In this document: piece after piece, positions 43,269 through 48,007 of the stretch | Numbering within the stretch: position 1 is the stretch's first letter | Layout of the letters: each line of letters starts with the position of its first letter | Assembly (NCBI GenBank): GCA_945957605.1 | Contig: CAMFLR010000008.1 | Span: 186,001-250,000, forward strand | Direction of reading: 5' to 3' | DNA from: an uncultured Isosphaeraceae bacterium | GTDB taxonomy: Bacteria > Planctomycetota > Planctomycetia > Isosphaerales > Isosphaeraceae | DNA length: 64,000 nt | Notes under the pieces: model-generated | Databases searched by the model: none | What the model was told of the DNA's origin: nothing | Seen by the model: the letters and a program-made list of their open reading frames with translations, nothing else | Program-made: the position numbers and the translations under genes

Positions 43269-45010
43269 GCCGCGCGATAAACTGTTTTGCCGGCGACGAT
43301 CGTACGTAGCACTTTCATGTTGCGCAAGGCGTCGTCGGTGCAATAGAGTGGGTCGTCGCTGACGACGATCAAATCGGCAAGCTTGCCTGGTTCAATTGTT
43401 CCTTTGAACAAATCTTCTGAATGCAGCTTTGCATTGTTGATCGTATAAAATCGAAGTGCTTCGAGTCGGGTCAAGCTCTGGTCGATGTTTAGCACCCCTG
43501 CCCCTTCGGTTTTCCGCGTGACGGCGACGTAAATCCCGAGCCACGGATCCCAGGGATTGGTGGCTTCAATCGCGTCGAGACGGATCATGTGATCGCTGCC
43601 GCCGCCGATCGTTAGCCCCGCGTCGAGCCACTTGCGGTAAGGATGAAACCACTGCATCCGCTCGGGGCCGAGCAGTTTCATCAAGGTCCGCGTATCTTTC
43701 CAGATCCAGGCGGGTTGCAGGTCGGCACCGACGCCAAGCTCGCGGCAGATTCGCAGGTTTTGGGCCGATGTGAAGTTCGCGTGGGTGATCATCCACCGGC
43801 GACCTTTTATTCCCACTGCGCGATCGGCGTGCTGATAGGCCTTGAGCAACTCGTCCATCGCCCCTTCACCGGCGACATGTGCCGTCATCGCCCAGCCGCG
43901 CCGGGCGACTTCTTCGGCGAGGATCGCCAGCGGTTCGGGCTGAACGAATAACAGGCCGCGATATTCGGGCTCGGTGATTTGATAGGCCGGGCCGACTCCC
44001 CACGGCGTCCGCATGTAGGCCGTGCCGTTGAGCATGCCGCCGTCGAGAAAGATTTTTAGAGGGCCGATTCGCACCCAGTGGTCGCCCACGCCGGTCGGTC
44101 CATTAGGCTCTTTCTTGACACCATCGCCTTCCAGTTTGCGCAGGCCCTCAGCCATTGCGGCGCGGTCGCCGGACGGGCTATCGAGAACGCGCGTCGCGTT
44201 CACTCGCAGCGTCAGGCGGCTCTCATCGCGCATTTTGCGATAAATTTCGATCGCCTTGTCGCTGGCGGCGCGGTCGGCGATGCTCGTGATCCCTCGCGCG
44301 TTGTAGCGGCCGAACAGGTCGCGCACGCGCTGCTCGTCGGCCGGGCCGTCGTCGGCCGAAGTGAAGTTCGGCAGACCTTTCAGCACTGAATACGCGTTGC
44401 GAATCATGCCGGTCGCCTCGCCGGTTTTCGGGTCGCGCACGACGCGTCCGGCGGGCGGATCGACAGTTGCTTTCGTCACGCCTGAGATTTCGAGCGCCTT
44501 CGTGTTGACCATTCCGGCCGGCCCAGCCTGATGCAGCACGGGATGGTCGGGCGCGATGGCATCGAGTTCGGCACGAGTGGGAAATCGGCTCTCGTCGAGC
44601 CGAGTTGGGAAGGCGTAGCGGACGACAATCCACGTCCCTTTGGGCTGAACTTTCACACGTTCGACGATGTAGGCCTTGATGTCGTTGAGCGAACGATAAG
44701 CGGGAATCGCGTGATCCTTTTCGCTCGTCGCTGCGCCCAGGGGATGAACGTGGCTGTCGTAAAGCCCCGGTAGGACCGCCTTGCCTGCCGCGTCGATGCG
44801 CTCGGTTTTCTCGCCGGCAAGTGCGAGCGCTTCGGCATTCGTGCCGACTAGCAAGATTCGCCCGTCGCGCAGCGCCACGGCTTCGGCCACGCGATCCTGT
44901 GCGTCGAGCGTAATTACGCGCGCGTTCACAATGATCACATCGGCCGCGGGTCGTGCGGATTGAGGCGCGGCGAGTGCGAGCAGCAGCGGGATGATCGCCT
45001 GGATCGTCAT
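43262..45010 (-). CDS. Exported amidohydrolase (YtcJ-like, amidohydrolase family 3)
   Basis: About 582 residues. Signal peptide MTIQAIIPLLLALAAPQSAR. VIIVNARVITLDAQDRVAEA, the metal motif GLYDSHVHPLG, later MTAHVAGEGAM, ITHANF and GGGSDHMIRLD provide the ligands; LRFYTINNAKLHSEDLFKGT and KLADLIVVSDDP close the family pattern. GGAAGG precedes the ATG; a GTG three codons earlier is an alternative. Zn-dependent hydrolysis of an amide or cyclic bond is known for relatives; substrate unknown. Confidence 0.9.
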   Translation of the reverse strand: MTIQAIIPLLLALAAPQSARPAADVIIVNARVITLDAQDRVAEAVALRDGRILLVGTNAEALALAGEKTERIDAAGKAVLPGLYDSHVHPLGAATSEKDHAIPAYRSLNDIKAYIVERVKVQPKGTWIVVRYAFPTRLDESRFPTRAELDAIAPDHPVLHQAGPAGMVNTKALEISGVTKATVDPPAGRVVRDPKTGEATGMIRNAYSVLKGLPNFTSADDGPADEQRVRDLFGRYNARGITSIADRAASDKAIEIYRKMRDESRLTLRVNATRVLDSPSGDRAAMAEGLRKLEGDGVKKEPNGPTGVGDHWVRIGPLKIFLDGGMLNGTAYMRTPWGVGPAYQITEPEYRGLLFVQPEPLAILAEEVARRGWAMTAHVAGEGAMDELLKAYQHADRAVGIKGRRWMITHANFTSAQNLRICRELGVGADLQPAWIWKDTRTLMKLLGPERMQWFHPYRKWLDAGLTIGGGSDHMIRLDAIEATNPWDPWLGIYVAVTRKTEGAGVLNIDQSLTRLEALRFYTINNAKLHSEDLFKGTIEPGKLADLIVVSDDPLYCTDDALRNMKVLRTIVAGKTVYRAAQ

Positions 45011-45093
45011 GGCGGGCACCTTCCGGAGGAGGAGTCGCAGGAGAGGTGCGAGAGTAATTCAACCCGCGCCTGCGAGCAACGACCGAGGGGAAA

Positions 45094-45741
45094 TCAGTCG
45101 AACGCCCCTTCGGCGAGCAGGCGATCGAGTCCGACTCGCAGTTGAGCGAATGCTCGGGCACGATGGCTGAGTTGTGCCTTCACGAGCGGAGGAAGCTCGC
45201 CGAATGTCTTGTGATATTCCGGGATCAGGAACATCGGGTCGTAGCCGAATCCGCCTGGCCCGCGAAGCTCGCGCGTCAGCATTCCACGGCAAGCGCCCGC
45301 CGCTTCGAGGCGGATTTTTCCCGTGGGATCGGCGAGCGCGAGCGTGCAAATGAACGCCGCGCCTCGTTTTTCATCGGGCACGTTGCGCGTGTTTTCGAGC
45401 ACGAGCTGGTTGTTTGCATCGTCGTCGCCGTGCGAACCCGCATATCGCGCAGAAAATACGCCGGGCGCTCCGCCAAGAGCGTCGACGGCCAGCCCGGAAT
45501 CGTCGGCGACGGTCCAGTGGCCTGTCGCCTGCGCGACTTCCGATGCCTTCTTGCGCGCATTGCCGGCGAAGTCCGGGGCGTCTTCGACAACGTCAGGCAG
45601 GTCGGGCCAGGCGTCGAGCGTGCGGACGACGAGCGACGTGAGCCGTGGGTGATTTTCCCACGGAGGTGCGATCAGTTGCTCGATCTCCTTGCCTTTTTTG
45701 ACGTTGCGCGTGCCGACAAGGAGCGTGTAAGGTCCGGACAT
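45094..45741 (-). CDS. rdgB: Non-canonical purine NTP pyrophosphatase (RdgB/HAM1 family)
   Basis: 215 residues. LLVGTRNVKKGKEIEQLI starts the fold; TVADDSGLAVDALGGAPGVF and GPGGFGYDPMFLIPEYHKTF carry the substrate and metal residues; LSHRARAF is the C-terminal motif. It removes ITP/XTP/dITP from the nucleotide pool. Its ATG lies one base after the T-tract of a hairpin, and the apparent ribosome-binding site GGAGAGG is in that hairpin's 3' arm, so expression may depend on hairpin opening or read-through. Confidence 0.95.
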   Translation of the reverse strand: MSGPYTLLVGTRNVKKGKEIEQLIAPPWENHPRLTSLVVRTLDAWPDLPDVVEDAPDFAGNARKKASEVAQATGHWTVADDSGLAVDALGGAPGVFSARYAGSHGDDDANNQLVLENTRNVPDEKRGAAFICTLALADPTGKIRLEAAGACRGMLTRELRGPGGFGYDPMFLIPEYHKTFGELPPLVKAQLSHRARAFAQLRVGLDRLLAEGAFD

Positions 45742-45742
45742 G

Positions 45743-45777
45743 AAAAAAGGGCCTCTCCAATCGGGTTGGAAAGGCCC
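45743..45777 (-). terminator. Intrinsic terminator-like hairpin directly upstream of rdgB
   Basis: On the minus strand GGGCCTTTCCAA, a 5-base loop and TTGGAGAGGCCC pair at 11 of 12 positions and are followed by six Ts, then C and the rdgB ATG. It lies 43 bases after the stop of the upstream minus-strand gene and would end its message. The 3' arm includes GGAGAGG. Confidence 0.85.
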
Positions 45778-45820
45778 TAGTGTGCGTGCGCGAGACGCTT
45801 CGTTTCAAGGTTGAAGCGAA

Positions 45821-47005
45821 TTATCGCACTTTGATTTGCGTGAGGTCGGTCAGAGCCGTCGCAGGAACGACCATCACGTCCGCCACCTTGGCGTTGTTCA
45901 GGTATCCTGCCATGTACTTCATGAAGTTGTGCAACTTCACGGCGTTCGGGTCGTTGGATGCGTTGAACGAGCCAATGAAGACGCGGCTCGACGTGCGGTC
46001 GTGATAGACATACGGCACGTAACCAGCCTGCATCACGCTCTTGTCTTTGCTCAACGAATCGGCAAGTTTCTCAGCGTCTTCGTGCGCGGTTTTGAGCGGG
46101 CTGTGCGTCAGCGACAGCATGCTCTGGTTCTTGCCGCTGATCGCCTTGGCGTCGCCGAGGTCGGCTCGTCCCGCGAATTCGGCGATTTGCAGCGAATAAC
46201 GGCCGGGGCACTGGTAGATGCTGTGGTGGCCCTGGTTCATGTGGGTCACGAATGCATCCGGCTTGCGCGGGAAGAGGGTTTCAGCGGGAGCGTACGGATT
46301 CGTCGTACGGATCGCCCGGCGCAGGCCCTTGATCTTGAGCGCGTTCGTAGGATGCCAGTCCGGCAGGTATTCCATGCAGTCGGGACGCAGCCCTTTGACC
46401 TTGTGCAGCAGCTTTTCCGAGTCGTCTTCAGACTTCTCGTCGCCGACGAGCACAGCAGCTTCGTCCTTAACTCGCTCGATGTCCGGGAACATGAGCTCAG
46501 GGCGATTGATGCCCTTATTTGCCGTCGGAGGAAGCCCGCGGATCAAGCTCCGCATCGGGAAATCCTTGGGCCGGAGGACGTAGGCCGGCAGGCGATAGTG
46601 GCTTCGCAACTCCATCGCCAGAGCCTGGGCCGACTTCTCGGCATAAGGCCCCTTGAAAGTGTGCGCCAGCACCATGAACGGGCCGGCTTCCTGCGTCAGC
46701 AGGTACGGCTCGATTGGTTCGGCCGGCAGCGGGAACTTGGGCGGCGGCAGGTCTTTGGGATTGACCGGCTCGGGGATGACAACGTTCGTCCGCGCGAGGT
46801 TGGGGTCCTTCGCGGCGGCAGCCTGGTTCGTCATCGACGCCGCGGTTGCGCTGCTGCTCTCCGCGCCCTGAGCAGGCGGAACCGCGCTAGCGGGCGCCGA
46901 ACGTGGCTTTGCGCCGCCTAGGCGTCCTAAGAACTGGGCTTCACTGGTAGCGGTCGCGCCAAGCGCGATGGCCACGGCCGTCATGGCGGTGAAGGTCTTC
47001 TTCAT
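45821..47005 (-). CDS. Exported hypothetical protein
   Basis: About 394 residues. Signal peptide MKKTFTAMTAVAIALGATAT, then a low-complexity Ala/Ser/Pro linker to about residue 75. A folded region follows (EPYLLTQEAGPFMVLAHTFK; YAEKSAQALAMELRSHYRLP; MQAGYVPYVYHDRTSSRVFI). The phrases resemble a SPOR-like arrangement repeated twice, but I do not assign it. GGGGG lies upstream of the ATG. Planctomycete-type secreted protein of unknown role; followed by a terminator hairpin. Confidence 0.75.
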   Translation of the reverse strand: MKKTFTAMTAVAIALGATATSEAQFLGRLGGAKPRSAPASAVPPAQGAESSSATAASMTNQAAAAKDPNLARTNVVIPEPVNPKDLPPPKFPLPAEPIEPYLLTQEAGPFMVLAHTFKGPYAEKSAQALAMELRSHYRLPAYVLRPKDFPMRSLIRGLPPTANKGINRPELMFPDIERVKDEAAVLVGDEKSEDDSEKLLHKVKGLRPDCMEYLPDWHPTNALKIKGLRRAIRTTNPYAPAETLFPRKPDAFVTHMNQGHHSIYQCPGRYSLQIAEFAGRADLGDAKAISGKNQSMLSLTHSPLKTAHEDAEKLADSLSKDKSVMQAGYVPYVYHDRTSSRVFIGSFNASNDPNAVKLHNFMKYMAGYLNNAKVADVMVVPATALTDLTQIKVR

Positions 47006-47191
47006 TAGGCGATCCCCCGTCCTTGTTGGGTCGCGTTTTTGATCGAGCAATCAACCCGTCGAGAGACGCCCGATATCCTTTCGAGCATTTTCCCTCGACA
47101 ATCGGCCGGAAACCTATCAGAAACCGCAAAATCGGCCTAGACCGAAATTCTTGAGATTTCGACAAGCTTGAAGTTGTTTGCCAATCAACAA

Positions 47192-48007
47192 TTACGGCAA
47201 GCGTTCGATCGCCTGCCGAATAAATGCCGCGTGAACAACAGTCGATAGTCCCAGCCGGTGACGGATTTTCTGGTGCCCGTAAAGCGTATTGAGATCCTCA
47301 TCGATAAACCGTTGCGCAGTGATGAGTCCCAGAATCAGGTCGGTGTTGCGCGCAGGTTTGCTTGGATCTGTGGCGGCAATTGTCTTGCTCAAGAACACTG
47401 GGCCGCCCGAATCGCCTTCAAAGATGTTCGCCGAAATCAAAAGTGCGCCGGTTCGTTCGGTCGGAAGGATTGGAAATCCGGCGATCGGCCCGTTGCGCAG
47501 GATGGGAAATCCGGCGTCGTTCGACTCGTTCCGGTGCGGATATCCCAGCGCATTAACGACGTCGCCGGGATGAATCTTCGCCGCCTTGAGGAATTCGTCG
47601 GTCGCGAGCAGGTCGATGGAAACTTTGGGCAGATCCGCGGCATTCGGCGGGCCGACGGACATTACCGCGATATCTTGCGTAGGATGGCGCGTCCAGAGCG
47701 GTTGGCCGTTCTTGCGAATCATCAGGCGGGTTGCAAGCTTGCGGTAGCCGTCGGCGTTGATTTCGCGGAAGTAGACGGTTGTTTCGGCAGCCGGGGTCGA
47801 TTCAAAAACGTGCGCTGCTGTCACCAGAATGAACCGGTTCGGCTCGTTCTGGTGCAGCAAGAAACCGGTCGCCGTCGACTTTTCCTGGGCGATTTTCACT
47901 GTCGCACGCATCATTTGCGTGGCAAGGTCGGGTGTATCCTGGCCGAACGTCGCGCGACAGAAAAGGCAGAGAAGAAGGCCAACGGCGGCGGTACATCTGC
48001 GCGTCAT
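47192..48007 (-). CDS. Exported trypsin-like serine protease
   Basis: About 271 residues. Signal peptide MTRRCTAAVGLLLCLFCRAT. The chymotrypsin-fold triad is visible: His in LVTAAHVFES, Asp in HPTQDIAVMS and Ser in EGDSGGPVF. No PDZ domain follows. An in-frame start 11 codons earlier is possible. It likely acts on envelope proteins, though targets are unknown. It follows RNase PH on the same strand but with 58 bases between. Confidence 0.85.
   Translation of the reverse strand: MTRRCTAAVGLLLCLFCRATFGQDTPDLATQMMRATVKIAQEKSTATGFLLHQNEPNRFILVTAAHVFESTPAAETTVYFREINADGYRKLATRLMIRKNGQPLWTRHPTQDIAVMSVGPPNAADLPKVSIDLLATDEFLKAAKIHPGDVVNALGYPHRNESNDAGFPILRNGPIAGFPILPTERTGALLISANIFEGDSGGPVFLSKTIAATDPSKPARNTDLILGLITAQRFIDEDLNTLYGHQKIRHRLGLSTVVHAAFIRQAIERLP

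Follow-up and report, generated by a model that had tools for sequence, protein, structure and literature searches.

The window, a 64,000-nt stretch of DNA from an uncultured Isosphaeraceae bacterium, carries on its minus strand a gene for an rdgB/HAM1-type XTP/dITP diphosphatase (45094..45741; Pfam PF01725, 186 bits). In NCBIfam, the rdgB product gave matches below the model cut-offs, the best of them to PRK14822. In frame, the stretch that leads from the preceding stop codon up to the conserved GTRN block contains the ATG at 45741-45739 and no other ATG, GTG or TTG, and most homologues have their start a few codons ahead of this block. On this sequence evidence, the rdgB start codon is sound. 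Upstream, on the same strand and separated from rdgB by an intergenic gap of 79 nt, lies a gene for an uncharacterised protein of 394 aa (45821..47005), recognised as an open reading frame with a coding score. The N-terminus of the protein resembles a signal peptide as judged by eye, and searches of Pfam and NCBIfam gave no match. A promoter scan of positions 44000 to 48000 detected no sigma-70-like site; only the sigma-70 type was scanned for, and promoters of this phylum may differ from it.

Sequence and folding place a hairpin in the gap (45748..45778, minus strand), with a 13-bp stem and a 5-nt loop. The 5' arm (45778-45766), the loop CCCGA (45765-45761) and the 3' arm (45760-45748) are followed by a run of six Ts (45748-45743), the first of which is possibly paired with A45778. 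If the A45778-T45748 pair is not counted, the stem has 12 bp, including one G-U. A single C (45742) stands between the T run and the rdgB ATG, and a 42-nt spacer (45779..45820, minus strand) extends from the upstream stop codon to the stem. The first-pass annotation had described a 12-bp minus-strand stem with six Ts, one base before the rdgB ATG, and this structure is present in the sequence.

Folding of the minus-strand stem (45778-45748) gave about -22 kcal/mol. For a 50-nt hairpin region the value was -22.5 kcal/mol; compared with 200 dinucleotide shuffles, none of which was equally stable, this corresponds to z -5.87. The element thus has the stable GC-rich stem-loop and the T run directly 3' to it by which intrinsic terminators are recognised. 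A coarse hairpin scan of 4 kb returned four terminator-like sites versus a mean of 5.4 in shuffles and, because the count lies below the shuffle mean, is no proof on its own; the rdgB-side hairpin had the longest stem among the four. When the arms were barred from pairing in a 301-nt transcript, the ensemble became 12 kcal/mol worse. In this one transcript, modelled by energy only as nested folds of the RNA by itself, nothing of similar stability was seen to compete with the hairpin.

Other identities of the element were considered and rejected. A bidirectional terminator was rejected because the stem formed by the plus strand (-20.3 kcal/mol) is not followed by a T run. A dispersed element was dismissed because no further copy of the 88-nt region turned up in the genome that carries it; apart from the region itself there were 16 matches, short fragments 14-19 nt long plus a single one of 33 nt at 79%, with a best E of 0.194. 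Rfam gave 0 matches at gathering score in the window and thus no known RNA family; such a match would be helpful, not required, for a new element. A small hairpin after the upstream stop (-6.8 kcal/mol) was discarded as a partner, since it does not overlap the terminator arms.

Terminator-like sites across the genome

The window's assembly comprises 8.84 Mb in 33 contigs. In 1.59 Mb of it (contigs C8 and C1 of G000) a home-made gene caller found 1140 genes (86% coding), and a home-made finder was run over the same 1.59 Mb, with a T run and a folding energy of at most -12 kcal/mol required of each hairpin. The scan gave 134 terminator-like hits versus 47 in the reversed sequence. Long or bulged terminators are missed or undercounted in such scans because the finder allowed one mismatch, no bulges and a span of up to 44 nt. 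A smaller run over 392 kb gave 45 hits versus 17 in the reversed control. The 134 hits were split into 97 intergenic sites and 37 within genes; 89 of the 97 were located downstream of a co-directional gene, with a median stop-to-stem distance of 35 nt (quartiles 27-43). At a distance of 42 nt, or 43 if the stem is taken as 12 bp, versus this median of 35, the rdgB-side hairpin has a typical terminator position, and its energy ranks 53rd among the 89 sites. By these sequence features, it resembles the other terminators in this genome, and the upstream gene is most likely the gene that it would end. For the Escherichia coli terminator tR2, PMC4824070 describes maximal termination in that system once the stop codon is more than 27 nt from the terminator.

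The placement of the putative terminator at rdgB is unusual. A co-directional next gene follows 52 of the 89 sites; in ascending order, the T run ends 1 nt (rdgB), 12, 13, and 31 nt and more before the next start. In the 12-nt and 13-nt cases, a Shine-Dalgarno (SD)-like motif (AGGA; GGAGG) follows the T run and is free. Since the remaining sites are at least 31 nt away, rdgB is the sole case among the 52 with a motif at -20 to -5 inside the stem. SD-like 4-mers (counted as GGAG, GAGG, AGGA and AAGG) were found inside the 3' arm at 17 of the 89 sites, so that the presence of such a motif in an arm need not be selected.

The candidate Shine-Dalgarno motif of rdgB

The candidate SD motif of rdgB, GGAGAGG (45752..45758, minus strand), is buried in the 3' arm. 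It holds the only SD-like 4-mers at rdgB positions -20 to -5, namely GGAG (45758-45755) and GAGG (45755-45752). GAGG occupies -14 to -11, and the SD profile of the genome peaks at -13 to -11. An SD-like 4-mer was present at -20 to -5 in 505 of 966 genes versus 129 of 966 in the control interval -50 to -35, and by this count the window's genome is one that uses SD motifs. PMC5397173 lists Planctomycetes among the phyla in which there are species with few SD genes and with signs of leaderless or S1-aided initiation. The 16S rRNA gene was not found in the window's assembly (G000) or in that of the genus-mate (G001); the anti-SD tail GGATCACCTCCTTTCT was present in all 12 16S loci read from five genomes of the family. 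Pairing of the rdgB motif with the anti-SD gives an ordinary -6.4 kcal/mol, which 38% of genes equal or better.

Opening of positions -17 to -8 is predicted to cost 16.2 kcal/mol at rdgB, which ranks third among 783 ATG starts (median 5.5). The same cost is the highest among 35 rdgB genes of the family (median 5.1 kcal/mol). For the motif-burying stem, 11.6-13.7 kcal/mol would be needed in each of 15 transcript windows. The predicted probability that the rdgB motif is unpaired (~1.6e-5) is the third lowest among 398 genes with such a motif; predicted burial is common, however, as 106 of these 398 fall below 0.01 by the same measure. The first-pass annotation had regarded GGAGAGG as the only visible ribosome-binding site and had proposed that it is hidden when the hairpin forms. 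The former agrees with the 4-mers found at -20 to -5, and the latter holds as a prediction, given the high opening cost and the low unpaired probability.

The intergenic gap in family relatives

An rdgB match was obtained in 41 of 45 genomes of the family sample; G059 and G065 were excluded (contig edge or partial match), which left 39 loci. The upstream gene adjoins rdgB in 35 of the 39, and these loci, window included, form the syntenic set, in which the starts of relatives were set by rule. Among the four non-syntenic loci, L023 is at a contig edge, and L003, L009 and L139 have a relative of the upstream gene ~4-14 kb off on the same contig. In the class-mates G040, G041, G042, G046, G049 and G057, the gene for the upstream protein lies ~1 kb or less before rdgB, by coordinates.

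Across the 35 syntenic loci, the gap before rdgB ranges from 5 to 249 nt. A gap hairpin of any kind of -10 kcal/mol or better was found in 28 of the 35 and a T-tailed one in 15, the latter count including weak cases because the T-tail test used in relatives (4 T in 8) is loose. Among the best T-tailed hairpins, that of the window ends closest to rdgB, 6 nt from its start, and all others end at least 31 nt away; when the best hairpin is chosen regardless of type, the four shortest distances are 6, 11, 17 and 21 nt. Four loci, the window, L015, L030 and L135, have a hairpin of -10 kcal/mol or better that ends no more than 20 nt before rdgB. Those of L015 (ending 9-13 nt before the start), L030 (17-19 nt) and L135 (14 nt) all lack a T run, and the window is the only one of the 35 loci with a T-tailed hairpin in this range. 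The median absolute deviation of the 15 T-tailed hairpins is 9 nt to the upstream stop versus 19 nt to the rdgB start, and that of all 28 hairpins is nearly equal for both (17.5 and 20, respectively). In the genus-mate, the nearest relative in the sample (L002), whose rdgB shares 75% identity with that of the window, the gap has 41 nt and contains no hairpin of -10 kcal/mol or better.

The hairpins of the relatives differ in place and in sequence. The first-pass annotation had named conserved pairing and a conserved distance to the ATG as support for regulation, and a lack of stem conservation as an argument against it; in this sample, neither the pairing nor the distance was found to be conserved, and the stem is not conserved. 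An SD-like 4-mer is present in 9 of the 35 family rdgB genes, the window's among them, and absent in 26. As far as the sampled sequences go, the burying placement is private to the window's genome, and the SD-like motif is not private but in the minority. The gap of L026 holds a 20-bp hairpin (-35.4 kcal/mol) that ends 86 nt ahead of rdgB. L016, inspected by eye, seemingly has a long or bulged terminator that was missed by the finder.

Probable termination and the expression of rdgB

We consider it very probable that the hairpin is an intrinsic (Rho-independent) terminator of the upstream gene, located in the 79-nt gap and crowded against rdgB. RNA polymerase leaving the upstream gene would be followed by formation of the hairpin and would stop on the T run, and the 42-nt stop-to-stem distance would keep the last ribosome clear of the hairpin. 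The T run, this spacing and the genome context support the first-pass proposal that the message of the upstream gene ends here. With an intergenic gap of only 79 nt, the end of the terminator would abut the rdgB ATG, and the placement looks like crowding, not like a conserved switch. As a terminator, the hairpin is ordinary, with an unusual fit. We infer that transcripts reading through the hairpin, or an unrecognised promoter with a start inside or after it, may provide for the expression of rdgB; the level would probably be low, with little help from the buried motif. Three observations speak against a plain terminator. The site is the extreme of 52, its motif is the third most inaccessible of 398 and its opening cost is the highest in the family, and a selected arrangement would give the same. 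The sigma-70 scan found no promoter from which rdgB would be transcribed. The family-wide linkage of the two genes would fit co-transcription, not termination between them.

The hairpin had initially been seen as more than a usual terminator, with a possible role as a gate on rdgB translation. As a dual gate, it would terminate the message of the upstream gene and, whenever transcription reads through, keep the ribosome-binding site of rdgB hidden until something opens the stem. The position of GAGG at -14, a spacing in use in this genome, would suit a gate, as would the stem opening of 11.6-13.7 kcal/mol and the cost of opening -17 to -8, for which every one of the 34 other syntenic loci has a lower value. 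However, a T-tailed hairpin ending 20 nt or less before rdgB is absent from all 34, the genus-mate lacks a gap hairpin of -10 kcal/mol or better, and 26 of the 35 rdgB genes do without an SD-like 4-mer. Burial to less than 1% unpaired is predicted for 106 of 398 genes and thus common. As there is neither a competing fold of similar stability, nor an Rfam match in the window, nor conservation, the gate has no positive evidence beyond its anatomy, and we regard it as very unlikely. Scarcely any weight, and the least of all, is given to a lineage-specific version in which one hairpin serves two genes by ending the upstream message and locking rdgB in read-through RNA, which would keep ITPase low and make it depend on conditions in which the stem melts or is bypassed. 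The buried motif would be irrelevant if rdgB had its own transcription start inside or just after the hairpin and were translated leaderless or from a very short leader. The signs of leaderless initiation described for species of such phyla (PMC5397173) and the 26 of 35 family rdgB genes without an SD-like 4-mer are consistent with this, but the sigma-70 type scan gave no promoter-like site and the genome uses SD motifs (505/966 versus 129/966); we regard such a start as unlikely.

Like other intrinsic terminators between co-directional genes, the predicted rdgB-side terminator lies shortly downstream of a stop codon, here by 42 nt, and consists of a GC-rich stem, a short loop and a T run. Unlike them, it lies 1 nt before the next start with an SD-like motif inside, whereas in the next closest cases (12 and 13 nt) the motif is free. 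In the vmlR leader of Bacillus subtilis, a transcription/translation attenuator described in PMC9226507, a single gene is likewise preceded by both a terminator hairpin and an SD that is buried. In vmlR each task has a hairpin of its own, and the leader also contains an upstream open reading frame and an antiterminator, whereas no competing fold and no conserved leader were found at the rdgB site. The RNA switch of Mycobacterium tuberculosis rpfB also has an intrinsic terminator ahead of a gene; PMC6009663 describes it with a pair of alternative structures, with RNA ends that have been mapped and with promoters of its own, and nothing of this kind has been seen at the rdgB site. Our literature search turned up no direct precedent for an SD swallowed by a terminator, which is not a claim that none exists.

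As a terminator that swallows the ribosome-binding motif of the next gene, the rdgB site offers a natural case in which to ask how a gene with a locked motif is translated. The 12-nt and 13-nt cases in the same genome, with their motif free, provide natural contrasts to rdgB. Intrinsic-terminator-like hairpins are common in this planctomycete, with 97 intergenic sites per 1.59 Mb scanned.
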